This document shows positions 1,818-22,459 of a stretch of 36,850 nucleotides of DNA, in pieces. The notes under the pieces were generated by a model. That model had not been told where the DNA came from. It searched no databases and worked only from the letters and a program-made list of their open reading frames with translations. The stretch lies in assembly GCF_000165735.1 (NCBI RefSeq), contig NZ_GL538194.1, forward strand, positions 1-36,850, written 5' to 3'. Numbering within the stretch: the stretch's first letter is position 1; each line of letters begins with the position of its first letter. Position numbers and translations under genes: made by a program. The DNA is from Megasphaera micronuciformis F0359. Lineage in GTDB: Bacteria > Bacillota > Negativicutes > Veillonellales > Megasphaeraceae.

Positions 1818-3116
1818 TTAAGAACGATTTTTCGTCATCATAATATGGAGGACTTCCTTGTCGGCAACTTGCATACCCTTAGTCGCGAAAGCCCCTATAT
1901 TTCGTATTGATTCGTCGGCGGTGTTGCTGACAAGGCCTTCGGCTCCACCGACACGAATTCCTTTACGAGCCAGAAAAACGGCTCTATAGGCGGCGTCGAC
2001 AGCCGTGGCGATTTTCAAGGAGCAGCCGTCTCCGGCACCGTCACAAACCATACCGATGTGTTCACCGGTCATATTGGAGATGACGGCTTCCAGCATTTCG
2101 TATGAACCGTCGAAGAGAAGGGTCATACCGGCCGCAGATCCCATGGCAGCCGTTGCTGTTGCACAAAGACCGGAAAGTTTAGGGTAAAAAGCGTGAATAT
2201 AAATCGCCGTAATATGTGAGAGTGCTAAGGCACGTATGTGGTCTTCACGGGATGACTTGAGATAGCGAGCCGTCACATTAACCGGGACGGTTGCTGTAAT
2301 GCCCTGGTCGCCAGAGCCGGCATTCGTCATTGCCGGAAACGGAGCTCCACCCATACGGGCATCGGAAGCAGCTGTAGTTTCCATAATCAGGCGATCGTGG
2401 AAGTTTTCGGGTATCATTCCGTTTTGCAAATCATCAAGCATGGATTTGCCCAGAGAGAGACCGTAATGATGGCGTAGGCCTTCAGCTGACAAGGCATCAT
2501 TAACGCGACCGGCCTCGGCCATGAACTCAATATCGGCTAAGGGAACGGTTTTTGCGAATTCATATAAAAGTTTTAGATTTAGTGTTTCCATAAAAGGCAG
2601 ATCGGGGTTGGTAGGAGATGCTGATTCGTCATCTTTATGGAAAATAACCTTTTCATCCGTTTCAATGCGGACAATGTTTGTATGTCGTCCTTGGATAATG
2701 ACGCGAACCCAGTGTGCATCCGCGGTAAGACAGACTTCGACATAAAGCGGCAGACCAGTGTCGGCAACTTGGACAGAAACTATTTTTTGGGCAATTAATT
2801 CTTTTGCCTTTTCCACATCGGTATCTGTTAGCTTACGAAGAACATCCAGACCGCCCTCGGGATCGCCGCCCGTAACGCCTACAGCCACAGCAATATCCAT
2901 ACCGGGAAGTCCCGTGCCGGGTACCTTGACGGCCATGCCGTTTTTCATGAGATTGGGTGATACGAAAGCAGCTATCTCGGTCGGTTCCGACTCTAAGTAT
3001 TTGCGAGCCGTAGCCGCAGCGTAGGCTAAAGCAATGGGTTCGGTACAGCCTGTGGCATAGACGACCTCTTTTTTCAAAACTTCAATGATACGTACGTATA
3101 AAGTGTTTTCAGACAT
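1818..3116 (-). CDS. L-cysteine desulfidase / serine-dehydratase-alpha-like protein (CyuA/YhaM, UPF0597 family)
   Basis: A 432-residue cytoplasmic enzyme of the UPF0597 family. Characterised members (CyuA, CdsB) break L-cysteine into H2S, pyruvate and ammonia with a 4Fe-4S cluster. Conserved features include ATGCTEP with C24, the glycine-rich VGVTGGDPEGGL region near 80-90, AGSGDQG near 266, GLCATATAAMG with C318, and CDGAGDGC with C358 and C365. C24 with two of the C-terminal cysteines are likely cluster ligands. It starts 25 bases after the stop of the gamma-glutamyltransferase-like gene, so the two are probably cotranscribed. Together they could turn gamma-glutamyl-cysteine compounds into amino acids and then H2S plus pyruvate; that link is inference. 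Serine dehydratase activity is an alternative. Confidence 0.85.
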   Translation of the reverse strand: MSENTLYVRIIEVLKKEVVYATGCTEPIALAYAAATARKYLESEPTEIAAFVSPNLMKNGMAVKVPGTGLPGMDIAVAVGVTGGDPEGGLDVLRKLTDTDVEKAKELIAQKIVSVQVADTGLPLYVEVCLTADAHWVRVIIQGRHTNIVRIETDEKVIFHKDDESASPTNPDLPFMETLNLKLLYEFAKTVPLADIEFMAEAGRVNDALSAEGLRHHYGLSLGKSMLDDLQNGMIPENFHDRLIMETTAASDARMGGAPFPAMTNAGSGDQGITATVPVNVTARYLKSSREDHIRALALSHITAIYIHAFYPKLSGLCATATAAMGSAAGMTLLFDGSYEMLEAVISNMTGEHIGMVCDGAGDGCSLKIATAVDAAYRAVFLARKGIRVGGAEGLVSNTADESIRNIGAFATKGMQVADKEVLHIMMTKNRS

Positions 3117-3141
3117 AGGTAAGTCCCCTTTTTTCGAATAG

Positions 3142-4746
3142 TTACCAGACAGCTACGTCCCCGTCCGTGCGAGGATCCGTAGCACCGGCAAGTATGCCGT
3201 CTTTATTTCGCCAAATAATCTGTCCTCGGCCGAATACGGCTATATCAGAATTTACAGTAACGCAATGCCCCTTTTCTCGTAAGGCGGCAACGAGGCGGGA
3301 ATCAAAGTCGGGTTCAACTTCTATGTTCTTGTCGCCCGTCCATTGCCAACGAGGCTTGTTCAAAGCCGATTGCGGATCCAGGTGCTCGTCTACTGTATCG
3401 ATAACTAACTGCAGTTGTCCTTGCGGTTGCATGAAGGCACCCATGATGCCGAAGGGACCGATAGGTATACCGTCTTTACTTAAGAATGAAGGAATAATTG
3501 TATGGTATGATTTTTTACGCGGTCCTACGGCATTGGGGGAAGTCGGGTCGGCACTGAAATTTCGTCCTCGGTTGTTAAGAGCGATGCCCGTTCCGGGAAT
3601 GACAATGCCCGAACCGAAGCCGTCATAATTACTTTGGATGAGGGATACGGAGTTTCCGTCCTTATCGGCCGTGCAGGCATATACCGTACCGCCATCGCTT
3701 ACGTCGGGGCAGTCCGGCAAGTGAGCTGTAGTGGAAATGCGGCGTTGTCGATTCAGCCTGCTTTCTTCAGAGAGAAAGTCGTCTGTTGATATTTTCATGT
3801 AGGTCGGATCGGCAATAGTTTTCTTACCGTCCGTTAGAGAGGCTTTTAAAGCCTCTATTTGCATATGCAGTTTTTCAACAGGGTCGGCAGTAGGCGGCGT
3901 AAGATTATTTAATATATCCAGTGCGGCACTTACAACAATACCTTGACCGTTAGGCGGCAATTCCCAAACGTCGTAATCTTTATATGACATTTTTACGGGG
4001 GTTGTCCAAGACGGCTTATAAGCACTTAAATCTTCGTGACGAATAAGTCCGCCTGTCATACGAGAGTATTCGTCTATTATGCGACTCAGCTGCCCCGTGT
4101 AAAGAGATGAACATGCCGTTTCGGCCAAGTTTCGTAAGGTTTTTCCGTGGTCGGGAAGCGTTAAGACGCAGCCTTCTTCGGTGGGCCCGTCAGAGAAGAA
4201 CGTATTGAAGAGACCGGAAAATTCAGACCGGTTCTTGTAGGGAGCATACTTTTTGTACTCGCTTTGTAAGAGTCGGGCTAAAACCGGCATGACGGCAAAG
4301 CCATTCTCCGCATAATCCACAGCCGGTTCGAAGAGACTTTTAAAAGGCAACTTGCCGAAACGACTGTGCAATTCATACCAAGCAGCCGGGGCACCGGGAA
4401 TCATAACCGGCAGCCATCCGTAGGAGGGGAGACGGTTTGGTATATTCGGATCGGATTGTGTCAGTTTTGCAGGGGAAAACCCGCTGCCGTTTAACCCGTA
4501 TAGATGTCCGTCCATATGAATAATGGCGAACAAGTCGCTACCTATACCGTTGCTTACGGGCTCTAAAACGGTAAGCGCAATAGCAACGGCTACTGCAGCA
4601 TCGACGGCATTTCCGCCTTTTTTTAACATATCCAGACCAATATGTGCCGCCAACGTCTGAGAGGTGCAAACCATGCCCTTGCGACCGTATACGGTGCGGC
4701 GAGGCCGGTTATATAAAGGTGTTGTAGTATTAAAACCCCATGACAT
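3142..4746 (-). CDS. Gamma-glutamyltransferase family protein (YwrD-like)
   Basis: A 534-residue Ntn-hydrolase of the gamma-glutamyltransferase family, which cleaves gamma-glutamyl bonds such as that of glutathione after self-processing. The start follows GAGGAGG. N-terminal GGNAVDAAVAVAIALTVLEP and NGIGSDLF are family signatures. The predicted autocleavage and nucleophile residue is T354 in DGGTVYACTADKDGN, followed by SNYDGFGSGIV and PGTGIALNNRG. No signal peptide or membrane anchor is visible, unlike E. coli Ggt, so this is probably a cytoplasmic member like B. subtilis YwrD. It is the first gene of a two-gene unit with the desulfidase-like gene. True substrates could be glutathione, gamma-glutamyl peptides or related amides. 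Confidence 0.88.
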   Translation of the reverse strand: MSWGFNTTTPLYNRPRRTVYGRKGMVCTSQTLAAHIGLDMLKKGGNAVDAAVAVAIALTVLEPVSNGIGSDLFAIIHMDGHLYGLNGSGFSPAKLTQSDPNIPNRLPSYGWLPVMIPGAPAAWYELHSRFGKLPFKSLFEPAVDYAENGFAVMPVLARLLQSEYKKYAPYKNRSEFSGLFNTFFSDGPTEEGCVLTLPDHGKTLRNLAETACSSLYTGQLSRIIDEYSRMTGGLIRHEDLSAYKPSWTTPVKMSYKDYDVWELPPNGQGIVVSAALDILNNLTPPTADPVEKLHMQIEALKASLTDGKKTIADPTYMKISTDDFLSEESRLNRQRRISTTAHLPDCPDVSDGGTVYACTADKDGNSVSLIQSNYDGFGSGIVIPGTGIALNNRGRNFSADPTSPNAVGPRKKSYHTIIPSFLSKDGIPIGPFGIMGAFMQPQGQLQLVIDTVDEHLDPQSALNKPRWQWTGDKNIEVEPDFDSRLVAALREKGHCVTVNSDIAVFGRGQIIWRNKDGILAGATDPRTDGDVAVW

Positions 4747-7095: not shown

Positions 7096-8436
7096 TTACC
7101 GTTTATTGCTGTATCGCCAAATTTTGAAAGCCTCCGCTTCTTTAATCAAGTCTTCGCGGAAATCGGGATGTGCCAAGTTAATAAGTTTTTCCGCACGTTC
7201 CCATGTGGAGGCGCCCATCAGGTTGGCAATGCCGTATTCCGTTGCTACATAATGGGTCTGGGATCGAGGTACGGTCGTGATTGTACCGGGAAGTAAGGTG
7301 GGACGAATTCGGGATTGCATTTTTCCCGACTTGTCCGTGAAGGTGGCATGGAAGGCAATGATGCTTTTTCCGCCTTTGGAGCGATAAGCACCGTCGGCAA
7401 AATCAAGCTGCCCGCCACTTCCGCTGATGTGCTTTGTTCCTGATGATTCGGAAGAAACCTGGCCGAACAAGTCTACTTCGAGACAGTTATTGATGGAGAT
7501 AAAGTTATCCAGCTGAGCTACTACGCAAGGGTCATTGACATAGGAAACGGGGTAAGCCGCTAAATAGGGATTATCATCCAACCATTCATACAATTCTTCG
7601 CTGCCTGCAGCAAAAGACCAAACGGCTTTATTCCGGTCAAGGCTCTTGCAACGGTTGGTCAGACGGCCTTTTTTATACATGAGTAAGAACGCGTCGACGA
7701 GCATTTCCGTGTGCATACCCAAGTCTTTTAAGTCGGAATCGGCGATCATGGCGCCTACCGCGTTGGGAAGACCGCCAACGCCTAACTGTAAAGTAGCTCC
7801 GTCAGGAATTTCTTTCAAAATCATTTTGGCAATCGTCTTATCCGTGTCGTTGCCGTCTTTGAAAGGAATGATAGGCATGGGGATAGAACCGGCTTCGACG
7901 ACTAGGTCGACATCGGAAATATGAATGCATTCGTCGGAGCCGCCGAGAACGCGAGGTGCCGCTTCGTTAACTTCCAGGATTACTTTTTTCGCCTTTTTAC
8001 AAATTTCAGCCGTTGCGGAAACCGTAGGTCCGAAGGTGAAGAAGCCGTGTTTATCCATGGGGCTCACCGTAATCATCGCTACGTCCACATCCAGAATATC
8101 TCTATAAATAGACGGTTTGTTACGGTACATCATGGGAATGAAGTTGCTGAGTCCCTGCGAACAAAGTTTGCGATCGTATCCGCTCATATGCCAGTTCATG
8201 GCCGTAAATGTTTTTCGTTCCGGGTCTTCATCTATAATATGCCGCGGAGAGAGCGAAAAGGCCATACGGACTTTAATATCCTTTAATTCATCCTTACGGG
8301 CTGCCAGGGCCTTATCGAGCACAATCGGTTGTGACGTAGCCATACCGTAGTCGACCCAATCGTGGTCTTTTACAATTTTAACGGCCTCTGCGGCACTGAC
8401 AGTCTTTTCTTTGTACATATCTGTCCATTGAGACAT
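7096..8436 (-). CDS. Acetyl-CoA hydrolase/transferase family CoA-transferase (4-hydroxybutyrate/butyrate type), first copy
   Basis: A 446-residue CoA-transferase related to 4-hydroxybutyrate and butyryl-CoA:acetate CoA-transferases, which swap CoA between an acyl-CoA and acetate. Features include the glycine-rich GATLQLGVGGLPNAVG, the probable catalytic E244 in GMHTEML, SESSGTKHISGSGGQLDF, and the C-terminal TEYGIANLMGASTWERAEKLI. The start was set at the ATG at 8434-8436, which matches the N-terminus of the second copy (12418-13755) and has AAGGG upstream. A further upstream ATG lacks a ribosome site. It has its own promoter and appears monocistronic. It is clearly paralogous to the second copy, and both end in IWR.SNKR, yet it sits outside the aromatic operon. 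The acyl specificity cannot be read from sequence. Confidence 0.88.
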   Translation of the reverse strand: MSQWTDMYKEKTVSAAEAVKIVKDHDWVDYGMATSQPIVLDKALAARKDELKDIKVRMAFSLSPRHIIDEDPERKTFTAMNWHMSGYDRKLCSQGLSNFIPMMYRNKPSIYRDILDVDVAMITVSPMDKHGFFTFGPTVSATAEICKKAKKVILEVNEAAPRVLGGSDECIHISDVDLVVEAGSIPMPIIPFKDGNDTDKTIAKMILKEIPDGATLQLGVGGLPNAVGAMIADSDLKDLGMHTEMLVDAFLLMYKKGRLTNRCKSLDRNKAVWSFAAGSEELYEWLDDNPYLAAYPVSYVNDPCVVAQLDNFISINNCLEVDLFGQVSSESSGTKHISGSGGQLDFADGAYRSKGGKSIIAFHATFTDKSGKMQSRIRPTLLPGTITTVPRSQTHYVATEYGIANLMGASTWERAEKLINLAHPDFREDLIKEAEAFKIWRYSNKR

Positions 8437-8499
8437 TGTAATCACCAAACCCTTCATATAAGTTGTTATTATAGTTGTTCATACGTACTCTTATTCTTA

Positions 8500-12376: not shown

Positions 12377-12414
12377 AAAACGTCCTGTCAATATTTGATT
12401 TGACAGGACGTTTT
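12377..12414. terminator. Bidirectional terminator between convergent genes
   Basis: Arms AAAACGTCCTGTCA (12377-12390) and TGACAGGACGTTTT (12401-12414) give a 14-bp stem with a 10-base loop and A/T runs on both sides. It ends the aminopeptidase transcript from the left and the five-gene ior operon from the right. Confidence 0.9.
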
Positions 12415-12417
12415 GTA

Positions 12418-13755
12418 TTATCGTTTGTTGCTTTTGCGCCAAATTTGTTGCTTTTCAGCGGCTTGAATCAACTCTTCGCGGAAGTCGGGGTGAGCCAAAC
12501 CGATTATTTTTTCGGCGCGCTCCCAGGTAGGTAAGCCGACGAGTCTGGCTATGCCGTATTCCGTAACCATGTACGGAGCTTGCGTGCGCGGAGTCGTAAT
12601 AATGTCGCCTCTCGTAAAATGCGGAAATATATTGGAGTGGCGGATACCTTTTTTTTCGACATACATGGACGGCATGGCGAGGAATGCCTTGCCGTGAGCA
12701 GCGCTATAGGCTCCGGTTACAAAGTCGAGTTGTCCTCCGGTACCGCTGATTTGTCGTGTGCCCGATGATTCGGAACAAATTTGTCCGTACAAGTCCATGG
12801 AGATACAGCTGTTAATGGAAATAAAATTATCCAGTTCTGCCATGACCGTCGGATTATTTACATATGACATAGGGGCCGAGAGTATTGACTCGTTTTGGTG
12901 AAGAAAGTCGTATAACTCTTCCGAACCCATGCAAATGGAGAAAACACCTTTGCCGCGATGGAGGGTTTTCTTTTTGTTCGTGATTTTCCCGGCCTTGTAC
13001 AGCTCCAAGTACCCGTCACTCATCAATTCAGTGTGCATGCCCAAGTCTTTCAAATCGGATTGGGCAATAAGTGAGCCCAAGGCGTTAGGCATACCGCCAA
13101 TACCGAGTTGAAGTGTCATGCCGTCGCGTAAATACGGAAAGATGTGTTCGGCAATTTTAATGTCAATGTCTCCGGGATTGCGATTAGGCATAGTCGGCAA
13201 CGGCGTGTCCGATTCGACAATGTAGTCTACATCGCTAACGTGGATATGGTCATTAGCCAGGCCCGAGATAACGGGCATGTGCTTATTCGGAATGACGATA
13301 ATCTTGCGAGCCGCATCTAACATTTCCTGTTGGCAACAGTTCGTGAGGCCGAAGCTGAAATTACCGTGCCTATCCATCGGGGAGACGGTAAGCATGGCTA
13401 CATCGACGGGAGCGATGCCCTGTTCATAATAGGAACCGCAGTGGCGGAAGAGCATGGGTTCATGGTAAGCCATACCCTTGTCGAGATAAGTTCGATCTAA
13501 ACCGGAACAGTGCCAGAGGTTATACGTAAAAGCCGTCTGGTCCGGGTCTTCTTCTACGACAGCAATCGGGAGGGCGGAAATGGCGTTACGGACCTTAACG
13601 TCCGTCAGTTCATCTTTACGAGCCGCCAGAGCCTTATCCAAGTCGGTCGGGAAAGAACAACATTGACTGTAGTCGATCCAATCACCGCTTTTTACAATTT
13701 TTGCAGCCTCTTCGGCAGTAATTAACTTTTTTCGGTATTCGTTGAGAAAATCCAT
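12418..13755 (-). CDS. Acyl-CoA:acetate CoA-transferase family protein, last gene of the ior operon
   Basis: A 445-residue CoA-transferase of the 4-hydroxybutyrate/butyryl-CoA:acetate type. Motifs include GMTLQLGIGGMPNALG, the probable catalytic E243 in GMHTELM, SESSGTRQISGTGGQLDFVTGAY, TTPRTQAPYMVTEYGIARL and the C-terminal IWRKSNKR. The start follows AAGAAGGTGCTTC. It lies 42 bases after the aminotransferase gene and ends at a bidirectional terminator, so it closes the operon. In this context I infer that it takes CoA from the arylacetyl-CoA (or branched acyl-CoA) made by IorAB and passes it to acetate. That frees the acid product and gives acetyl-CoA for ATP synthesis elsewhere. Butyryl-CoA:acetate transferase is the main alternative. 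Confidence 0.88.
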   Translation of the reverse strand: MDFLNEYRKKLITAEEAAKIVKSGDWIDYSQCCSFPTDLDKALAARKDELTDVKVRNAISALPIAVVEEDPDQTAFTYNLWHCSGLDRTYLDKGMAYHEPMLFRHCGSYYEQGIAPVDVAMLTVSPMDRHGNFSFGLTNCCQQEMLDAARKIIVIPNKHMPVISGLANDHIHVSDVDYIVESDTPLPTMPNRNPGDIDIKIAEHIFPYLRDGMTLQLGIGGMPNALGSLIAQSDLKDLGMHTELMSDGYLELYKAGKITNKKKTLHRGKGVFSICMGSEELYDFLHQNESILSAPMSYVNNPTVMAELDNFISINSCISMDLYGQICSESSGTRQISGTGGQLDFVTGAYSAAHGKAFLAMPSMYVEKKGIRHSNIFPHFTRGDIITTPRTQAPYMVTEYGIARLVGLPTWERAEKIIGLAHPDFREELIQAAEKQQIWRKSNKR

Positions 13756-13797
13756 GAAGCACCTTCTTTTCTATAGTAGGTAAGCGAAGAATGAGAT

Positions 13798-14985
13798 TTA
13801 ACGATAGGACTTCATCAATTCGGCGAATGCCGGGAGAGAACGGCGAATCATATCGGGCTGTACGCAATAGGAAATACGGACATAGCCGGGGCATCCGAAG
13901 CTGTCAGCCGGTACAATGAGCAGGTTAAGCGCCTTTGCTTTTTCGGAGAAGGCATTAGCATCCGCTTCGGGAGATTTGACGAATAAGTAAAAGGCCCCGC
14001 TCGGATATACACATTCATAGCCCAATTCTTTAAGACCGTTGTAAAGCAATTTTCTGTTAGCGTCATAGACGGAAATGTCCGACGTTTGTCCAAGGCATTT
14101 TAAGACTACGTCTTGGAAGAGATGGGGAGCGCATACGAAGCCCATGATGCGGCCTGCACCGCAGACAGCCGTATAAATTTCCTTACTGTCCGTAGCCGAA
14201 GGAGGGACGAGGATGTAGCCGATGCGTTCGCCCGGTAAGGACAGGGATTTACTGTACGAATAGCAGATAATCGTATCCTTATAGTAGTGAGGAACATAAG
14301 GGACGGTCAGGCCGTCATAAATAATTTCGCGATACGGTTCGTCGGCAATTAAATAGATGGGGTGTCCGATTTCGCCGGACTTCTTTTCCAAGAGAGCGGC
14401 TAATTTCTTATACGTATCTTCAGAATATACGACGCCGGAAGGGTTGTTCGGAGAATTGATAATCAGAGCTCGTGTTTTCGATGTAATCGCCTGTTCCAAA
14501 GCATCGAAGGGAATCTGGAAGCTTTCCATATCGGGCGGTACTACGACTTTTTCAGCTCCCGAATTTTTAATAAAAGCTGTGTATTCCGGGAAATACGGAG
14601 CAATGACGACGATTTCATCGTCCGGAGATTCTACAAGGGCCTTTAACGTAATAGTCAAGGAAGCGGCAGCACCGCAAGTCATGTAGAAGTTACCTGCTTC
14701 GACGCCGGCATTGAAGGTTTTATTCATATAATCGGCTAATCCTTTGCGGACGACAGGGTCGCCGGCTGCTGCCGTATACCCGTGAACAGCAACGGCTGTG
14801 CGGGTTTCCATGATTTCCGTAACGGCGTCTTTGATACATTCCGGAGCCGGCACGGTAGGGTTACCGATACTGAAGTCGAATACGTTTTCGTCACCTATTT
14901 TTGCGGCTTGTTCACGGCCATATGTAAAGAGGGCGCGAATTACGGAGCTCTGAGCCCCCCATTGATACATTTCTTTAGATGCCAA
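13798..14985 (-). CDS. PLP-dependent class I/II aminotransferase (aspartate/aromatic type)
   Basis: A 395-residue fold-type I aminotransferase that would convert an amino acid to its 2-oxoacid. The PLP lysine is K246 in SYSKSLSLPGERIGY. NSPNNPSGVVY, the ADEPYREIIYDG aspartate motif, GAAASLTITLKAL and the C-terminal PGYVRISYC arginine are also visible. The start is set at the TTG at 14983-14985, 8 bases after AGGAG. A GTG three codons upstream overlaps the ribosome site and is unlikely. It lies between the permease and CoA-transferase genes of the ior operon. This context suggests it makes the arylpyruvate (indole-, phenyl- or hydroxyphenylpyruvate) that IorAB oxidises. Sequence alone cannot separate aromatic from aspartate or alanine specificity. 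Confidence 0.88.
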   Translation of the reverse strand: MASKEMYQWGAQSSVIRALFTYGREQAAKIGDENVFDFSIGNPTVPAPECIKDAVTEIMETRTAVAVHGYTAAAGDPVVRKGLADYMNKTFNAGVEAGNFYMTCGAAASLTITLKALVESPDDEIVVIAPYFPEYTAFIKNSGAEKVVVPPDMESFQIPFDALEQAITSKTRALIINSPNNPSGVVYSEDTYKKLAALLEKKSGEIGHPIYLIADEPYREIIYDGLTVPYVPHYYKDTIICYSYSKSLSLPGERIGYILVPPSATDSKEIYTAVCGAGRIMGFVCAPHLFQDVVLKCLGQTSDISVYDANRKLLYNGLKELGYECVYPSGAFYLFVKSPEADANAFSEKAKALNLLIVPADSFGCPGYVRISYCVQPDMIRRSLPAFAELMKSYR

Positions 14986-15027
14986 TGAAATCACTCCTTT
15001 ATGAAGAGAATATCATGTTAACCGTCC

Positions 15028-16365
15028 CTATGAAAGGGAGATAAACGGTGAAATAAGTAAGAAGAAACCGAGTAAGGCTATGGGTACGACCTGGAACGTG
15101 CGGTATTTCTTAAAAACGTCAAGTTTATATACAAGACAAAGGGGTAAGAAACAAGCGATAATTCCGATCATAGGGCTTAACAGAGAAGCAAAGCTGAGTA
15201 CCGGGGCATTAAAAACGATGACGGCCCAACAAAGGACTATACAGAAAATACTGGTGCCGTATTTAATGATTGTGCGGTTGATTTTATCCGTCGGAATAAG
15301 CCGTTCCAATATGTTAACGGCAATGCCGCAACAAGAGTCGCGGAAACTAAGGAACATAGCAAAATAGGCCGTTACAATGGCAAAAATATTAAGCAAGAGA
15401 CTGAAGACTTTTACTAACGAGCCGTCAATATCTTTTGCCGCCATAGCCAAGGAGGAAATGTTGGCATGATATGCCTGAATGGCCTGTTCTTGAGAGATTG
15501 CCAAGTTAAAGGATACGGTGTAGAAAATTACGACTACCAACAAGATGATGTAAGCGTAATTGTATGTACGTAATGCCTTATAGTGGGCTACTGTTTTATT
15601 TTCGGCATGATTGCGGTAGTAGATAACCGTAGGGCTGAGATTGGCGAAGAATTCAATAGACAATGCGGCAAAGGGTAAAATAATGATGAATTGCTTAATT
15701 ATGTACCCGATATTATGCACAGGAGCGATGTTGGCGACGTTCCAGTATTGAACCATTAACACACCCATGGCGGCAATGACGAAGACCTTCGTAAGAACCA
15801 TGCCTGATGCGACTTTAAATAACAGCTTTTCACCTTGAGAAGCAACGGCTACGAGAACGCAAATTATGCCCAATCCGTAGAAGATGTTATCAGCCATGGA
15901 TGTTTCCGTGACCCCGAAGGTTACGAGGAAAGAAGCGCTGTCATTGGTCAGTGCGGTTGAATAGAGAAAGATGAGGATCGTCGTAAAGATAAAATAAATA
16001 GCACCTAAGGCGAACCCCCAGTTCTTGCCCAGGTATCCCGAAATAATGCCTGCAAAGTCTTCACACTTCGGCGCATCGGCCAGAATATTTAAGAAGAGTT
16101 TCTGGTGTTGATACATAATAGGATAGCCGATGAGTGCGGCAAGAATATAAATCCACAAGCCGGATAAACCGACCTGAACGGGAAGAAAAACAATGCCGGC
16201 GCCGATTGCCATGCCGATGTCCATAATAATCCACCCAATGTCAATACCGCCGAGCTTTGTTGCGGCCTTCCATTCGGAAAGGGTCATACCCGCTTCTTTA
16301 GCCAGCTCTTCTTGAGACGGGCCTGTGAAACGGTTGATGATAGGAAGCTTTTCAATGAAAGACAT
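15028..16365 (-). CDS. Amino acid permease of the HAAAP type (aromatic/hydroxy amino acid family)
   Basis: A 445-residue inner-membrane transporter with about eleven hydrophobic segments. Its general make-up resembles the hydroxy/aromatic amino acid permease family (SdaC, TdcC, TyrP, Mtr), including the N-terminal GWIIMDIGMAIGAGIVFLPVQ segment and a central PFAALSIEFFANLSPTVIYYR stretch. The start is the ATG at 16363-16365 after AGGAGGG. The 28 upstream in-frame codons have no ribosome site and overlap a hairpin. It sits between iorB and the aminotransferase gene, and the gene order argues for uptake of the amino acid consumed by this pathway. A serine or threonine substrate is also possible for this family. 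A strong hairpin precedes it, so its expression may differ from iorAB. Confidence 0.82.
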   Translation of the reverse strand: MSFIEKLPIINRFTGPSQEELAKEAGMTLSEWKAATKLGGIDIGWIIMDIGMAIGAGIVFLPVQVGLSGLWIYILAALIGYPIMYQHQKLFLNILADAPKCEDFAGIISGYLGKNWGFALGAIYFIFTTILIFLYSTALTNDSASFLVTFGVTETSMADNIFYGLGIICVLVAVASQGEKLLFKVASGMVLTKVFVIAAMGVLMVQYWNVANIAPVHNIGYIIKQFIIILPFAALSIEFFANLSPTVIYYRNHAENKTVAHYKALRTYNYAYIILLVVVIFYTVSFNLAISQEQAIQAYHANISSLAMAAKDIDGSLVKVFSLLLNIFAIVTAYFAMFLSFRDSCCGIAVNILERLIPTDKINRTIIKYGTSIFCIVLCWAVIVFNAPVLSFASLLSPMIGIIACFLPLCLVYKLDVFKKYRTFQVVPIALLGFFLLISPFISLS

Positions 16366-16385
16366 AATACCCTCCTGAAAACTCT

Positions 16386-16415
16386 CTCTTACGGGCCTCC
16401 CCCGACCCGTAAGAG
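16386..16415 (-). terminator. Strong intercistronic hairpin between iorB and the permease gene
   Basis: CTCTTACGGG (16386-16395) and CCCGTAAGAG (16406-16415) form a perfect 10-bp stem with a 10-base loop. On the minus strand it is followed by AGAGTTTTC, with only four T's. It is therefore better read as an attenuating or RNA-stabilising hairpin than a full terminator. Confidence 0.55.
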
Positions 16416-16426
16416 GAGTAAAATTG

Positions 16427-17002
16427 TTATACGGCAGCCATACCTGCATCGAATGCTTTTAAGTTTATATCAACGAATTTAGGCTTCACTGTACGACTGA
16501 TAATAGATTTCCAATCAATATCCGTTAGATCCAATGCTTTGATTAAGGCTCCGAGAAGAACGACGTTGGCACTTTTGGGGTTGCCGATATCCGTAGCAAT
16601 CTGTGTGGCATTTAAGGGTAACACGGTAGTCCGCGCTTTTAATTCTTCCAAGACGGTTTGCGGATATTTTCTTTTTCCCGATAAGACGGGCATAGACGGG
16701 ATCTGGAGCGTATTGACAACAACCTTGCCTTCGGGTTTTAAGAACTTCAGGTAACGGGCCGCTTCCATTTCTTCAAAAGAAACGAGTAAGTCCGCTGTTC
16801 CAGGACCGATAATGGGAGAGTAGACCTTCGGACCGAAGCGTACTTGAGTACTTACGGAACCGCCGCGTTGGCTCATGCCGTGTACTTCCGACATTTTTAC
16901 ATCATAACCGCTTTCTATTAAACCGATAGTGAGAATTTTGCTGGCAAGAATTGCACCTTGTCCGCCGACGCCGACAAAGAGCACGTTTTTGATTTCGCTC
17001 AT
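16427..17002 (-). CDS. iorB: Indolepyruvate:ferredoxin oxidoreductase, beta subunit
   Basis: A 191-residue gamma-type domain subunit of 2-oxoacid:ferredoxin oxidoreductases. With IorA it oxidises aryl-2-oxoacids plus CoA to aryl-acetyl-CoA, CO2 and reduced ferredoxin. Motifs include FVGVGGQGAILASKIL near the N-terminus, SEVHGMSQRGGSVSTQVRFG and LLVSFEEMEAARYL, typical of IorB. The start is the ATG at 17000-17002, one base after the iorA stop, with GGAAGGAGG inside the iorA end. Translation of the two subunits is therefore probably coupled. An upstream extension lies within iorA in another frame and was rejected. Confidence 0.95.
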   Translation of the reverse strand: MSEIKNVLFVGVGGQGAILASKILTIGLIESGYDVKMSEVHGMSQRGGSVSTQVRFGPKVYSPIIGPGTADLLVSFEEMEAARYLKFLKPEGKVVVNTLQIPSMPVLSGKRKYPQTVLEELKARTTVLPLNATQIATDIGNPKSANVVLLGALIKALDLTDIDWKSIISRTVKPKFVDINLKAFDAGMAAV

Positions 17003-17003
17003 A

Positions 17004-18782
17004 TTAACGAGCCTCCTTCCGGGAAATGGCGTTGACCGGGCAGACCTGGGCACAAACGCCGCAACCGACACAGTCTACGGAAATATTCGATTTTCTGCTT
17101 TCGTCGTCAAAACGCAATGCCGGGCAACCGGTAGAGAGACATTTTTTGCAACCGATGCACTTGTCCTGGTCAACGACAAAGGGTGTCATATTTAAATCAA
17201 ATTGTTCTTTATCTTCTTTAGAGAATTTCTTCAAAACACAAGGCCATTTGGTGATGATTACGGACGGTTCATCCGTAATAGCGTAAGCCCAGTCCAGAGC
17301 TTCGTTCATGGCTTTTAAGTCCAAGGGATTGACGATGCGAATATTTTTCAAGCCCAAGGCACGGACTACGGCTTCGATGTCGATAAACGAGGTTGTATCG
17401 CCCTTGATATTATAGCCTGTACCGGGGTTTTCCTGATGACCGGTCATACCCGTAATACGGTTGTCGAGGATGACATTAATTGTCGGAGACCCATTGTAGG
17501 CCACCTCTATGAGAGAGTTAATCCCCGTATGGAAGAAAGTAGAATCGCCCATGATGCTGACGACGCGTTTCGGTTGGTTGCTTTTTTCGAAAGCATGAGA
17601 CATGCCGTGCCCTAAGGAGAAAGCGGCACCCATACAGACTGCCAGATCGATGGCATTTAACGGATCGGCACCACCGAGAGCATAGCAACCGATATCGCCG
17701 ATCATAACCGTATCTTTACGCTTGCTGAGGGCATAGAAGAAGCCTCTGTGCGGACAGCCGGCACAGAATGTAGGAGGTCTGGGAACCAATAAGTCTTGAG
17801 GTACATCGTTGAATTCCCGGGTTGTCCCAAGAATGGCTTCGGCAATGATATTGGGGTTTAATTCATCAATCTTGGGAATGACGTCTTTGCCGTGGCAGTC
17901 GATACCGGCCGTGCGAAGAATCTCTTCCATATACGGATCCAACTCTTCGATGACATATAATTCGTCTACCTTTTCGCGGAATGCACGAATTTTCTCAACC
18001 GGCATGGGATAGGATAACCCGACCTTAAAGTAGGATGCTTTGTCGCCGAACACGTCTTTGGCATACATGTAAGCGGCACCGGATGCAACAATACCGATTT
18101 TCGTATCATGCATTTCTTCGTAGTTCCAAGGACAGTCGTTGCTATAAGCTTTTAATTTTTCTTCGCGAGCTTCGACGATATGTCGGCGTACTTTGGAAAC
18201 GGCCGGAATAGCATCATTTCGTTCAGGATGCTTTTCGTACAGGACAGGGGCAACCTCTACACGATTGCCTTCAGTAACAAGGCTCTTGGAATGACAGACA
18301 CGTGTCGTCATACGAATCATGACAGGCACTTCAAATTCTTCACTGAGACGATATGCGTCTTTGGTCATGTCGAGACATTCTTGAGAGTCCGAAGGTTCAA
18401 GCATGGCGATTTTCATGAATTTCGCGTAGTTTCGGTTATCCTGTTCGTTCTGGGATGAGTGCATACCCGGATCGTCTGCGGAAACGAAGGCAAATCCGCC
18501 GTTTACGGCTAAATACGAGAAGGTAAAGAGGGGATCGGCAGCTACGTTTACGCCTACCCTTTTCATAGCGGCAAAAGAACGTACGCCGGCCATTGATGCA
18601 CCGATAGCAGCTTCCATGGCTACTTTTTCATTAGGAGCCCATTCGGAGTAAATTTCATCATACGTCGATACGTTTTCCAATATTTCCGTACTGGGAGTGC
18701 CCGGATAGGCCGAGGCAAAGAGGACGCCGGCCTCGTAGAGGCCTCTGGCGACGGCTTCGTCACCTGTTAACAGTTTTTTCAT
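17004..18782 (-). CDS. iorA: Indolepyruvate:ferredoxin oxidoreductase, alpha subunit
   Basis: A 592-residue thiamine-diphosphate enzyme subunit. The N-terminal pyrimidine-binding domain has LLTGDEAVARG and AYPGTPSTEILE. The TPP-binding domain has FCAGCPHRGFFYAL, GDIGCYALGG and GDSTFFHTGINSL. The C-terminus carries two 4Fe-4S ferredoxin motifs, C542/C545/C548/C553 and C571/C574/C577/C581. With IorB it couples oxidative decarboxylation of aromatic 2-oxoacids to ferredoxin reduction. The start is the ATG at 18780-18782 after CCAGGAGG; the 53 in-frame codons upstream cover promoter sequence. It is the first gene of the five-gene operon and is read from a sigma-54-like promoter beside the divergent activator gene. 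Confidence 0.96.
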   Translation of the reverse strand: MKKLLTGDEAVARGLYEAGVLFASAYPGTPSTEILENVSTYDEIYSEWAPNEKVAMEAAIGASMAGVRSFAAMKRVGVNVAADPLFTFSYLAVNGGFAFVSADDPGMHSSQNEQDNRNYAKFMKIAMLEPSDSQECLDMTKDAYRLSEEFEVPVMIRMTTRVCHSKSLVTEGNRVEVAPVLYEKHPERNDAIPAVSKVRRHIVEAREEKLKAYSNDCPWNYEEMHDTKIGIVASGAAYMYAKDVFGDKASYFKVGLSYPMPVEKIRAFREKVDELYVIEELDPYMEEILRTAGIDCHGKDVIPKIDELNPNIIAEAILGTTREFNDVPQDLLVPRPPTFCAGCPHRGFFYALSKRKDTVMIGDIGCYALGGADPLNAIDLAVCMGAAFSLGHGMSHAFEKSNQPKRVVSIMGDSTFFHTGINSLIEVAYNGSPTINVILDNRITGMTGHQENPGTGYNIKGDTTSFIDIEAVVRALGLKNIRIVNPLDLKAMNEALDWAYAITDEPSVIITKWPCVLKKFSKEDKEQFDLNMTPFVVDQDKCIGCKKCLSTGCPALRFDDESRKSNISVDCVGCGVCAQVCPVNAISRKEAR

Positions 18783-18845: not shown

Positions 18846-18862
18846 TGAAATTATCGTGCCAA
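18846..18862 (-). promoter_or_regulatory. Sigma-54-type (-24/-12) promoter of the ior operon
   Basis: On the minus strand TTGGCACG (18855-18862) is a perfect -24 element, followed by TTTCA (18846-18850) in the -12 position. The GG-N10-xC spacing is kept, with T replacing the G of the -12 GC. It lies 64 bases before the iorA start codon and beside a gene for a sigma-54 activator. An overlapping sigma-70-like pair further up (TTTACA 18924-18929, 17-base spacer, TATCTT 18901-18906) is a weaker alternative or additional start. Confidence 0.7.
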
Positions 18863-18936
18863 CATATAAAAAGGCGGATTTATGCGAAAGGTAGATTTTA
18901 AAGATATTAAAGACATAAAAAAATGTAAAAAAAATA

Positions 18937-18954
18937 GACATGACTTTACATGTC
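18937..18954. promoter_or_regulatory. Palindrome, likely upstream activator site for the sigma-54 regulator
   Basis: GACATGACTTTACATGTC is a perfect 6+6 inverted repeat with a 6-base centre. Its centre is about 110 bp upstream of the predicted iorA start, the usual distance for a sigma-54 enhancer. It lies 31 bases before the regulator start codon, so it could also mediate autoregulation. A looser ACAT-N6-ATGT repeat lies at 18913-18926. Confidence 0.6.
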
Positions 18955-18985
18955 GGTGTATTCTAAAGAAGAGGAGGCTATGCTT

Positions 18986-20875
18986 ATGGGAAAGATCGTA
19001 TTTTTACTTGCCGATGAATTACTGAAAAAAGAAGTAGAATCTATTCTTTGGATTTATAGACCGGAAGAAGAGAAAAAACAGATTGATACGGAAATTGCAA
19101 TTATTGAGTTGGAAAGGGTGGTCGAACAGGCTGAACAACTTATTGCCCAAGGAGCACAGGTCATTATTACCAACAGCGGGTCTTATCAGATTTTAAGTGC
19201 CGCCGTTAAAGAGATTCCCGTCTTATGTCTTTACAGTTCGACCAGTGACACGTTGTATACATTGCAACAGGTAAAAGACTATGATACTATACACCTTTTA
19301 TTGAGCAAAAACTTTATGTTTAATGCTGCCGCCTGTCCAGCGGAACTTGAGCAGAAGTTAAAAATACATGCTGCTTATGCGATAGAAACGACATACCAGG
19401 AATTGCGTACTATTGTGAATCGCATTCCCGTAACACAAAATACGGTTATTGTCGGCTGTACTCTGTTGCCGCAAATTGCTAACACACCGATGCCGATTAT
19501 GACGATTCGCCCCAGTGAGTCGGCTATTTTATCAGTTTACCAGTATGCGTGTGAACTCGTTGATTTTAAGCGACAGGGGCAAAGTTGGGGGGCTACGATG
19601 AGCGCCGTCTTGGAAAACTATCATGACGGGATTGTTGTTTGCGATGAAGAAGGAAATATATATCATGTCAACAAAGCGGCTAAGAAATATTTACATTACG
19701 TTGATCAGGGAAAGAATATAGCCTCGGCTTTTCCGTCAGCATTAAATATAGAACCTCGTGCACTGTGTGATAAAGAAAAGGTCATCACAATTCGTTCTTA
19801 CACTCTGGTTTTGACGGCAACGATCTTTAAAGTTGACAATGACACACGCTATATCTTAAATATTCGAGACGTAACGGAACTTCAACATTTAGAAAAAAAT
19901 ATTCGCTATAAGTTGTCTCGTACGGGCTTGGTGGCAGCCCATCATTTTGAAGATATTAAGACCTGTGACGAAAAGATGAAAAGTGTCATAGAGACGGCTA
20001 AGGTGATGGCAACTTATGAAGCGCCCGTATTGATTCAAGGACAAAGCGGAACGGGGAAAGAACTCTTTGCCCAGAGTATTCATAATTACAGTATACGTCA
20101 TAAGGGCCCTTTTGTGGCCGTAAACTGTGCGGCCTTGCCGTCGGACTTGTTGGAAAGTGAGCTCTTCGGTTATGTCGGCGGCGCTTTTACAGGGGCCAGA
20201 AAAGAAGGAAAGGCGGGACTTTTCGAATTAGCTCATACAGGGACTATTTTTCTCGATGAAATAAACAGTATGTCCGCTAATATACAGTCTAAACTGTTAC
20301 GAGTTCTGGAAACGAAAGAAGTCATGAGAATAGGTTCCGACTTCGTCATTCCTCTGGACATACGCATTATTTCGGCGGCCAATCAGGATGTTGTCAAAGA
20401 GGTATCACAGGAGAGATTCAGAAATGACTTATTTTTTCGTCTCAATACACTGACGTTGAATTTACCGACGTTGGATGACAGGCCGTCCGATATAACGTAT
20501 CTGTTTGCTTCGTTTATGGAGCAGATATCGAGACAACCGTATAGTGAGGAGTGTATTCCGCAAGCCCTAAAAAAGGCGTTGCAAAGACATCGTTGGTGGG
20601 GAAATATCCGTGAACTGTACAGTGTGGCATTGCGTTATCATGTTTTAGGGGAAGAAGACAAGGGGGACTACGGCTACTTATTTGATACACCTGAAGAAGC
20701 AATTGACATAAACGGAGAAGGGCTCCCCGATTTAGATATGAAAAAACTTCAGCACTTATTCCAACAATCGCTCATTCATGATTTGAGGGCACAAGGATAT
20801 ACGCAAAGTCAGGTGGCTAAAATTCTGCATTTGAGTAGGCAGACGGTTTTTACGAGATTGAAAGAAAAAGAGTAA
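18986..20875 (+). CDS. Sigma-54-dependent transcriptional activator with PrpR-type N-terminal sensor and PAS domain
   Basis: A 629-residue enhancer-binding protein that remodels sigma-54 RNA polymerase at -24/-12 promoters. The N-terminal 190 residues resemble the PrpR_N sensor domain (small-molecule sensing, with VIITNSGSYQILS and IPVLCLY). A PAS domain follows at about 205-295 (LENYHDGIVVCDEEGNIYHVN). The AAA+ domain has Walker A GQSGTGKE (352-359), an intact GAFTGA loop (399-404) that contacts sigma-54, and Walker B GTIFLDEI (419-426). A Fis-type helix-turn-helix closes it (YTQSQVAKILHLSRQTVFTR). The start is the ATG at 18986, 8 bases after GGAGG; an ATG at 18950 lies inside the palindrome and has no ribosome site. 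It is divergent from iorA, so it most likely senses an aromatic amino or oxoacid and activates that operon. Confidence 0.9.
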   Translation: MGKIVFLLADELLKKEVESILWIYRPEEEKKQIDTEIAIIELERVVEQAEQLIAQGAQVIITNSGSYQILSAAVKEIPVLCLYSSTSDTLYTLQQVKDYDTIHLLLSKNFMFNAAACPAELEQKLKIHAAYAIETTYQELRTIVNRIPVTQNTVIVGCTLLPQIANTPMPIMTIRPSESAILSVYQYACELVDFKRQGQSWGATMSAVLENYHDGIVVCDEEGNIYHVNKAAKKYLHYVDQGKNIASAFPSALNIEPRALCDKEKVITIRSYTLVLTATIFKVDNDTRYILNIRDVTELQHLEKNIRYKLSRTGLVAAHHFEDIKTCDEKMKSVIETAKVMATYEAPVLIQGQSGTGKELFAQSIHNYSIRHKGPFVAVNCAALPSDLLESELFGYVGGAFTGARKEGKAGLFELAHTGTIFLDEINSMSANIQSKLLRVLETKEVMRIGSDFVIPLDIRIISAANQDVVKEVSQERFRNDLFFRLNTLTLNLPTLDDRPSDITYLFASFMEQISRQPYSEECIPQALKKALQRHRWWGNIRELYSVALRYHVLGEEDKGDYGYLFDTPEEAIDINGEGLPDLDMKKLQHLFQQSLIHDLRAQGYTQSQVAKILHLSRQTVFTRLKEKE

Positions 20876-20921: not shown

Positions 20922-21869
20922 TTAGAGGATAATGTTTTGCTGTTTTCCTGCCAAGAAGGTGTGAATATTTTCAAATACGATGTGAGCTCGTTTATTCATT
21001 GATTCATGGGTAGCGAAAGCGGCATGAGGAGTTACAATAGTATTTTTTGCATGAAGCAGGGGGTGGTTGACATCAATGGGAGGTTCCGTTTCGAAGACAT
21101 CGATAGCGGCACCGGCAATAGAGCCGTTATTAAGCGCGTCTGCCAAATCCTGTGAATTCACAACCGGACCGCGAGCTTCGTTAATAAGGTATGCTGTAGG
21201 TTTCATATAGGACAGACTTTCTTTATTAATGATTCCCCGCGACTGGTCCGTTACGGGGCAGTGGAGAGAGACGATATCGGCTTCCTGCATGAGTTCTTTT
21301 AAAGGTAAATATGTAATGAGCTCCGTATCGGGTTTAGAGGAAAATCCGTTATAAGCAATAACGCGGGCTCCGAATGCGTGTACCAATTGAGCGACTTTGG
21401 TGCCGATAGCTCCAGTGCCGAAGATGGCTACTGTTTTTCCTTCCAATTCGCCCCCGATCAGGCCGGCCTTCGTTTGTCCCCGGCGGCAAGCGGCATCGAT
21501 TTGCGGTACGTTGCGGAGTAAGTCGAGCATCATGGCTAAGGTAAGTTCTGCAACGGCCACCGTTGAGTATCCCGAAGCATTGCTGACTTTAACACCCATT
21601 TCTTCAGCCGCTTTAAGGTCTACATGATCGACTCCTGTAAATGCTATATTAATATATTTCAAGTGTTTGCAGGCACGAATGACTTCTCCGGATAAAGGCA
21701 TGTTGGCTATCATTAGAATATCCGCGTCGGCACTTTCTTTAATTAATGTCGCCGTATCATCTGTCCGTTCATAAGCGGTGAAGGTATGGCCGAGATTTTC
21801 CAATTCTTTGGAATAAGATTGTAGCGTTTGGGAAGTAACTCCCAGGGATTCAAGTAAGACAATGTTCAT
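20922..21869 (-). CDS. D-2-hydroxyacid dehydrogenase (NAD-dependent)
   Basis: A 315-residue member of the D-isomer-specific 2-hydroxyacid dehydrogenase family, which reduces 2-oxoacids to D-2-hydroxyacids with NAD(P)H or runs in reverse. The Rossmann motif is GTGAIG at 151-156. Catalytic residues are R233 (NEARGPVVN), E262 (FETEPP) and H282 (TPHAAFAT). The start is the ATG at 21867-21869 after AAGGAGG; a longer in-frame extension overlaps the exonuclease gene and was rejected. It follows the exonuclease gene by 35 bases. Being next to the ior activator, it might reduce arylpyruvate to aryl-lactate, but glycerate or phosphoglycerate dehydrogenase-like roles are equally possible. Confidence 0.88.
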   Translation of the reverse strand: MNIVLLESLGVTSQTLQSYSKELENLGHTFTAYERTDDTATLIKESADADILMIANMPLSGEVIRACKHLKYINIAFTGVDHVDLKAAEEMGVKVSNASGYSTVAVAELTLAMMLDLLRNVPQIDAACRRGQTKAGLIGGELEGKTVAIFGTGAIGTKVAQLVHAFGARVIAYNGFSSKPDTELITYLPLKELMQEADIVSLHCPVTDQSRGIINKESLSYMKPTAYLINEARGPVVNSQDLADALNNGSIAGAAIDVFETEPPIDVNHPLLHAKNTIVTPHAAFATHESMNKRAHIVFENIHTFLAGKQQNIIL

Positions 21870-21904
21870 GGTAAATAACCTCCTTAAGATGATATAGTAA
21901 TGTA

Positions 21905-22459
21905 CTAGAAATGCTTTAATTTCAGTCCCGTGCGAGTCAGTAAATCCTCGACGGATGAGGCCCCGGTACGTTCGGCTGCGGCACAAACGATTCGGGCACA
22001 AGCACGGGCATCGTCTAAAGCTTGGTGGTGACGGAAAGTAAAGCCCAAATGGCCAGCAACCGTATCCAGTTTGTGATTGGGCAGATCGGGCCAAACCTTA
22101 CGTGAAATTTCAACGGTACAAGCGTAAGAGGCATTCAGTCCCGGTAGATTGTAGCGCTTAATCAAGCTGCGCAATACGCGTGTATCGAAGACCGCGTAGT
22201 GGGCAATAAGAATTCGTTTATTCAGACGTTTACGTATATCCGGCCATAAAGCGTCAAAGGTCGGCTTGGCAGATACCATTTGCGGAGTAATTCCGTGAAT
22301 TCGAATATTGTCCTCGTCAAAGCGGTTAAACGGCGGCTTAATTAATGTATATCCCTCATGCATCACTGACTGACCGGCTATACTTACGGCTGCCAGTGAG
22401 CAGGCACTGTCGGCGTAACGGTTGGCCGTTTCAAAATCAATGGCCGTAAATTCCAACAT
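21905..22459 (-). CDS. DEDDh 3'-5' exonuclease (DnaQ/PolC epsilon-like)
   Basis: A 184-residue single-domain exonuclease of the DnaQ superfamily, which removes nucleotides from 3' ends of DNA or RNA. The DEDDh residues are visible: D8 and E10 in AIDFET, D92 in AHYAVFD, and H145 with D150 in HHQALDDA. NIRIHGITPQMV is the conserved segment between Exo I and Exo II. No BRCT, polymerase or helicase domain is attached, so it may be a proofreading subunit homologue or a general nuclease. The start follows AAGGGATTTT. It is divergent by 50 bases from the metallopeptidase gene and probably cotranscribed with the dehydrogenase gene downstream. Confidence 0.9.
   Translation of the reverse strand: MLEFTAIDFETANRYADSACSLAAVSIAGQSVMHEGYTLIKPPFNRFDEDNIRIHGITPQMVSAKPTFDALWPDIRKRLNKRILIAHYAVFDTRVLRSLIKRYNLPGLNASYACTVEISRKVWPDLPNHKLDTVAGHLGFTFRHHQALDDARACARIVCAAAERTGASSVEDLLTRTGLKLKHF

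Follow-up and report, generated by a model that had tools for sequence, protein, structure and literature searches.

In archaea, indolepyruvate:ferredoxin oxidoreductase (IOR) is usually paired with an ADP-forming acyl-CoA synthetase in peptide fermentation. The published studies, which we cite here by PMC number and use in excerpt, describe after the oxidoreductase either a phosphotransacylase-kinase route (PMC13285125, PMC13290082) or a ligase route (PMC13285125). Here we describe a locus of Megasphaera micronuciformis F0359 in which the gene of a CoA-transferase, designated CAT, is clustered with the IOR genes iorA and iorB. The window, i.e. the whole stretch of DNA analysed, comprises 36,850 nucleotides (GCF_000165735.1, contig NZ_GL538194.1, positions 1 to 36,850). 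Oxidative amino-acid fermentation via IOR is known in kind, and the new element is its pairing with a CoA-transferase. The terms CoA-transferase and Megasphaera do not occur in the main texts of PMC13285125 and PMC13290082, and a limited search of the PMC literature, mostly at listing level, found no report of a CoA-transferase beside IOR for the cash-out, that is, for turning the acyl-CoA into the free acid.

The enzymes of these systems give some guidance about substrates. Two-gene PPFOR-type enzymes, one from I. bartlettii and two from B. hydrogenotrophica, prefer aromatic 2-oxoacids (PMC13290082); judging from their naming and gene number, they are presumably of the IOR type, like IorAB. 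The kinase encoded next to the IOR of C. difficile performs best with phenylacetate and hydroxyphenylacetate and less well with indoleacetate (PMC13285125). These published preferences make phenylacetate or hydroxyphenylacetate a likelier main product than indoleacetate. For the genus itself, a 2026 vaginal study found that Megasphaera lornae correlates positively with indole-3-acetic acid, which is a correlation only (PMC13367043).

Results

Five open reading frames (ORFs) encoding IorA, IorB, a permease, an aminotransferase and CAT form a head-to-tail array on the minus strand with gaps, in this order, of 1, 61, 33 and 42 bp, and a Shine-Dalgarno-like sequence precedes each of the five starts. 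The initial annotation had described five same-strand genes with short gaps, and the ORFs and their spacing bear this out. iorA (17004-18782, 592 aa) encodes the alpha subunit of a 2-oxoacid (arylpyruvate):ferredoxin oxidoreductase with a thiamine pyrophosphate (TPP) domain and two 4Fe-4S clusters (TIGR03336, PF01855, PF02775, Fer4), iorB (16427-17002, 191 aa) encodes a gamma-type subunit (NF005325, PF01558), and CAT (12418-13755, 445 aa) is an AcetylCoA_hydro-family CoA-transferase (PF13336/PF02550).

We surveyed 60 related genomes, comprising 15 of the genus (the studied one included), 2 others of the family and 43 that belong to the same order but to different families. At E <= 1e-60, iorA was found in 12 of the 15 genus genomes (in G006 in fragments) and in both other family genomes, and in none of the 43 genomes from the order's other families. 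With the degraded G006 locus counted, this gives 15 family loci from 14 genomes, and in 14 of these loci, G006 included, the CAT gene lies on the same strand within 7.5 kb of iorAB. A divergent activator gene passed the threshold in 11 of the 15 loci; the aminotransferase gene was present in nine and the permease gene in six, one of them a degraded operon. Therefore, the conserved core is iorA-iorB-CAT, mostly together with the activator. The gene cluster is real and its core is conserved. The initial annotation had claimed a complete five-gene pathway and had proposed its gene order as a check: the link between iorAB and the CoA-transferase stands and the iorA-iorB-CAT core recurs in two genera, whereas neither the full set nor the five-gene order is general.

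The survey also revealed stages of decay. The activator gene is split by an apparent frameshift in G003, and in G006 (L034, 8587-11784) the activator-iorA-iorB-CAT array lies in pieces with internal deletions, where activator fragments remain and iorB and the CAT gene run together as one ORF. CAT orthologs are present in all three genus genomes without iorA (G010, G008 and G005). In G010, iorAB are gone and remnants of the activator and permease genes still stand beside the CAT gene, which therefore looks like an operon relic; in G008, the CAT gene reaches the contig end. The absence of iorA beside CAT is thus explained by deletion in G010 and by the contig end in G008, and is unexplained in G005. 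What looked like an insertion in the iorA of G013 was rejected, since the stretch holds a run of N.

Outside the family, the partners of iorAB are different. In a same-phylum sample of 398 genomes, with at most a few candidates scored per genome, IorA was found at E <= 1e-90 in at least 249 genomes and a CAT homolog at E <= 1e-60 in at least 124. Among the matches listed, an identity to CAT of at least 60% was confined to genus genomes and G150, and the CAT proteins of the two other family genomes, which are outside this sample, reach 63% identity to it. We selected by hand 74 non-family iorAB loci among the higher-scoring matches listed (for the most part one or a few from each family, with some truncated at contig ends) and searched 7.5 kb around them by tblastn (E <= 1e-12, with between one and four reference proteins for each enzyme). 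None of these 74 same-phylum loci had a CAT-family CoA-transferase gene within that distance. ptb and/or buk, encoding a phosphotransacylase and a kinase, were found at 15 loci and a PaaK-type ligase gene at 28, with both kinds at one locus; the rest had no CoA-transferase, ptb/buk or PaaK gene within 7.5 kb. Among the ten closest non-family IorA loci (57-60% identity), five carry ptb and/or buk, and no ptb, buk or paaK was detected within 7.5 kb of any of the 15 family loci. In three of the ptb/buk-type neighbourhoods (L036, L039 and L041, from three genomes of three families), a conserved ORF of 212-223 aa without a Pfam match lies between iorB and buk.

Genome-wide searches of the 15 genus genomes gave no match above cut-off to the ADP-forming synthetase domain (weak matches in 3), to butyrate kinase (weak matches in 14) or to the PaaK C-domain; the weak butyrate kinase matches, in ORFs of about 400 aa, are likely acetate kinases. 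Since these three alternatives stay below cut-off and CAT is linked to iorAB, we conclude that CAT is the best candidate for the cash-out step, although not the sole conceivable one.

In an IorA tree of 88 rows (built by a quick method under LG+G4, with SH-aLRT as the only support measure), the family sits inside a 22-row group (support 99), of which 13 rows are CAT-linked, 5 are ptb/buk-linked and 4 are unlinked. The half of the tree to which the family belongs has 38 rows, 7 of them ptb/buk and none PaaK, and the other 50 rows divide into 27 PaaK, 8 ptb/buk and 15 unlinked ones. Because the family's two genera are not sisters in the 22-row group, this tree neither demonstrates nor rules out that the CAT link arose only once.

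CAT carries both Pfam domains of the AcetylCoA_hydro (AcH) type, PF02550 and PF13336. It reaches 505 bits against the butyryl-CoA:acetate model TIGR03948 (cut-off 674.8), and its best PDB matches, 3eh7 and 3gk7, are 4-hydroxybutyrate CoA-transferases. Glu243, invariant in the 15 sequences aligned, lies in the region matching that of the active-site glutamate of the AcetylCoA_hydro family, a residue which we take to be catalytic. In a 57-row tree, CAT belongs to a supported 18-row group of 17 family rows and G150. The genus genomes hold 2-8 matches each to CAT's CoA-transferase domain. Within the window, a second AcH-type CoA-transferase is encoded at 7096-8457 (579 bits to the butyryl-CoA:acetate model, cut-off 675); its clade is separate from that of CAT and is represented in 14 of the 15 genus genomes, the studied one included, a G012 candidate being outside the tree.

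The identity of IorAB given by the initial annotation was confirmed at the family level. IorA exceeds the cut-off of the IOR alpha model TIGR03336 (677 versus 650.9 bits) and has the domain structure of an IOR, with fused POR_N and TPP_C domains and a two-cluster ferredoxin tail. IorB, which like the permease was scanned as the longest ORF, exceeds NF005325 (278 versus 230 bits) and falls below TIGR03334 (IOR_beta; 175 versus 206 bits). The remaining three POR-domain proteins of the genome are pyruvate:ferredoxin oxidoreductases according to TIGR02176 (two were scanned as partial stretches), and IorB is its sole free-standing PF01558 protein. Separate short PF01558 proteins besides IorB occur in several genus genomes and could be VOR subunits. 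By analogy with its described relatives, IorAB would prefer aryl 2-oxoacids.

The permease (15028-16365, minus strand, 445 aa; PF03222, TIGR00814) is a member of the HAAAP superfamily nearer to the Ser/Thr (stp) branch. It barely passes the Pfam model Trp_Tyr_perm (PF03222; 23.0 versus 22); TIGR00814 (stp) is by far its best model, with 339 bits under a cut-off of 525.8, and it scores 21 bits against the aromatic model TIGR00837 (araaP; cut-off 350). With 21 bits on the one side and 339 on the other, the permease cannot be called an aromatic importer by family alone, as the initial annotation had done. In G001, its slot is occupied by a lactate/oxalate-type MFS carrier, below the model cut-off.

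The studied genome encodes a paralog with 53% identity to the operon permease, beside which we could put a name to none of the genes. In G009 and G005, permease paralogs lie directly upstream of trpE on the same strand, 400-500 bp apart (L165, 3509-6691; L166, 10137-13453), which makes them a possible lead to a tryptophan permease. Another G009 paralog adjoins a gene of the serine-dehydratase-alpha type, and another G005 paralog lies near a gamma-glutamyltransferase homolog. These neighbours give mixed hints and do not settle the specificity. In the window itself, a gene for a serine-dehydratase-alpha-domain protein adjoins one for a gamma-glutamyltransferase (1818-4746), and together they may serve the salvage of cysteine or serine. 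Permease paralogs in G009 (L169) and G005 (L170) have homologs of these genes as adjacent or near neighbours.

The class I aminotransferase (13798-14994, minus strand) exceeds the cut-off of NF005305 (547 versus 376 bits), a model that names no substrate, and its best PDB match is 3ele. Its start in the ORF list is GTG 14994; TTG 14985 is more likely, since the GTG overlaps AAAGGAG.

The initial annotation had left out a control module that consists of a divergent sigma-54 activator gene, a promoter and a dyad. The activator (18980-20875, plus strand; PF06506, PF00158) has a PrpR_N-PAS-AAA(GAFTGA)-HTH architecture; its gene is divergent from the operon and likely starts at ATG 18980 behind AGGAGG, the ORF list giving 18950. 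A sigma-54-like -24/-12 promoter of iorA, TTGGCACG-ATAA-TTTCA, lies on the minus strand at 18846-18862 and matches 12 of 13 scored consensus positions. Comparison of the loci revealed the dyad TGTAAA-N15-TTTACA (18924-18950) as a candidate activator site. All 11 activator-bearing loci have a TTGGCAY-N5-TTTCA-like element upstream of iorA, with 10-12 of 13 scored positions and shuffle frequencies of 0.001 to 0.043. The dyad, with a spacer of N15/16, matches at 11 or 12 of 12 positions in the same 11 loci, and its start precedes the -24 element by 88-90 bp in ten of them and by 97 bp in L029; as the motif was derived from these sequences, its shuffle values (up to 0.06) are descriptive only. The genome encodes a full-length rpoN just below cut-off (264 versus 277 bits), and the locus thus combines a divergent GAFTGA activator, a -24/-12 element with TTTCA in its -12 part, and a genomic rpoN, as expected for a sigma-54 operon.

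Of the 15 genus genomes, G014 alone lacks an rpoN match. Its locus (L022) has no activator gene, the promoter has decayed to 8 of 13 positions, and an 11/12 dyad relic is kept. This joint loss of rpoN match, activator and promoter supports sigma-54 control. Inside the former promoter now stands TATAAT, resembling a sigma-70 -10 element.

Directly after the CAT gene lies a strong bidirectional intrinsic terminator (12377-12414) with a 15-pair stem and a T-tail; a further 12 terminator-like sites between 12300 and 21000 have 5-8 pairs. The cluster is very likely regulated as one unit. An Rfam scan of eight stretches gave tRNA and SRP RNA as its only matches at gathering scores, none of them in the window. 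Convergent with the activator gene is a gene for a D-2-hydroxyacid dehydrogenase (20922-22094), which is kept at the locus in G004 and G014; the enzyme could reduce 2-oxoacids in a reductive branch.

Discussion

The protein families, gene order, terminator, promoter-like element, dyad and recurrent iorAB-CAT link can be read from the DNA itself. On balance, the locus is probably an inducible oxidative amino-acid fermentation operon that forms arylacetate, with CAT as its cash-out enzyme. In the proposed mechanism, an imported aromatic amino acid would be transaminated to the arylpyruvate, which IorAB would oxidise to arylacetyl-CoA, CO2 and reduced ferredoxin. CAT would then move CoA onto acetate, the likely acceptor by analogy with 4-hydroxybutyrate and butyryl-CoA:acetate CoA-transferases, and the resulting free arylacetate would be accompanied by acetyl-CoA, from which ATP could be gained via the acetate pathway. 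CAT would in this way replace the phosphotransacylase-kinase pair that is found beside about half of the closest non-family IorAB relatives. The PrpR_N-type activator, with its ligand, would bind the dyad and switch the operon on through sigma-54. More tentatively, we infer from the sequence that CAT may be a dedicated arylacetyl-CoA:acetate CoA-transferase and that Megasphaera may have evolved a further cash-out module for the oxidation of phenylpyruvate, hydroxyphenylpyruvate or indolepyruvate, which would feed acetyl-CoA directly and be switched by a PrpR-type sigma-54 sensor, a proposal we take seriously without leaning on it; in a limited search of the literature, such a specificity was not found for this enzyme family.

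Several observations weigh against this interpretation. The genus-wide negatives cover three enzymes, and thioesterases, other ligases and lone phosphotransacylases were not searched for. The link to iorAB is not universal: the second iorAB copy of G001 (L029) has no CAT gene within reach, the other copy having one; the CAT gene of G005 stands alone, with no remnants of other operon genes in the 19 kb read; and in G150, it lies on a different contig from iorAB. We know of no member of the CAT clade with a known substrate, and the nearest named model is that for butyryl-CoA:acetate. The genes for import and transamination appear to be exchangeable members, the permease is more like a Ser/Thr than an aromatic transporter, and in G002 its slot is taken by an APC transporter of the BcaP-like kind (580 bits, cut-off 690). 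The case for aromatic substrates draws on published assays of relatives outside Megasphaera; furthermore, since two VOR-like enzymes proved to be aromatic and no motif predicts indolepyruvate use according to PMC13290082, sequence is an imperfect guide. As to control, the -12 part reads TTTCA in 8 of the 11 activator-bearing loci and TTGCA in one only, and L031 and L032, which have no activator, also reach 10 of 13 positions (shuffle frequency 0.037 and 0.028), in an element about 165 bp upstream of iorA with a different -24 part. With G014 at only 88% completeness, the absence of rpoN there may reflect a gap.

The alternative that survives best is that the same module acts on branched-chain or other aliphatic amino acids and yields isovalerate, isobutyrate or 2-methylbutyrate, which we consider unlikely although not far-fetched. 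The transporter of G002 and CAT's resemblance to butyryl-CoA:acetate enzymes would suit it, M. elsdenii converts branched-chain amino acids to branched-chain acids (PMC13319893), and since the studied genome has no other free-standing PF01558 protein, IorAB is its only candidate for the branched-chain step. However, IorA lies above the IOR model cut-off, the active two-gene PPFOR-type enzymes in print prefer aromatics (PMC13290082), and several genus genomes hold the separate short PF01558 proteins that are possible VOR subunits.

We regard as improbable the biosynthetic direction, in which CAT would activate arylacetate from acetyl-CoA, IorAB would carboxylate it and the aminotransferase would form Phe, Tyr or Trp. 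The steps are in principle reversible, the Bacteroides IOR with its AMP-forming ligase has been proposed to be biosynthetic (PMC13285125), and no match to prephenate dehydratase was found in three operon-bearing genomes (the studied one, G002 and G004). Nevertheless, 9 of the 12 iorA-bearing genus genomes (the degraded-operon G006 included) have prephenate dehydratase and trpB is present in the studied genome, which makes this direction unlikely; in addition, G010 has neither a prephenate dehydratase match nor iorA, and close IorA relatives sit with the ATP-yielding ptb/buk. Presence of the operon did not correlate with lack of prephenate dehydratase across the genus genomes, and a link between the two was rejected.

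Finally, there is little to recommend the view that CAT serves mainly straight-chain acids (butyrate, valerate, caproate) and stands beside iorAB by an accident of ancestry: its occurrence apart from iorAB in G005 and G150 and the several CoA-transferase domain matches per genus genome would fit, but the second AcH-type enzyme (7096-8457) could serve such acids, CAT has a supported clade of its own, and the linkage holds in two genera although the intervening genes have been exchanged.

To summarize, an arylacetate-forming operon with CAT as its cash-out enzyme remains our preferred reading; what the initial annotation had proposed holds for the iorAB-CoA-transferase link, with three alternatives not above cut-off, and fails for the permease type and the full five-gene pathway. 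Bacterial arylacetates reach the host, and the enzymes that form them are currently being traced. If CAT has the proposed function, genome screens for kinases or ligases only would overlook Megasphaera producers, and 2-oxoacid oxidation would be coupled to the acetyl-CoA pool. The sigma-54 control offers a handle, as the ligand that activates the operon would indicate its true substrate.

How does the locus compare with the systems described so far? The C. difficile IOR with its linked kinase and other IOR-ptb-buk loci likewise encode the cash-out alongside IOR, at some loci with aminotransferases, as here; they use a phosphotransacylase and a kinase, whereas Megasphaera apparently uses a CoA-transferase (PMC13285125, PMC13290082). 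The HpdDEFG-HpdJ-HpdK system for tyrosine in Clostridium scatologenes also converts an arylpyruvate to an arylacetate with reduced ferredoxin and keeps the thioester energy, but with a four-subunit VOR-like oxidoreductase, a phosphotransferase and a kinase (PMC13285125). The Bacteroides IOR belongs to the same family and operates with an AMP-forming arylacetate-CoA ligase, in a proposed biosynthetic role (PMC13285125); in contrast, the 15 Megasphaera genomes gave no match to the PaaK C-domain. The archaeal IOR differs in its ADP-forming synthetase, a domain that is not above cut-off in these 15 genomes. CAT itself is of the same family as the 4-hydroxybutyrate and butyryl-CoA:acetate CoA-transferases (3gk7, 3eh7, TIGR03948) and has a glutamate in the matching region, but it is set apart from them by its score below the TIGR03948 cut-off, its own clade and its linkage to iorAB.

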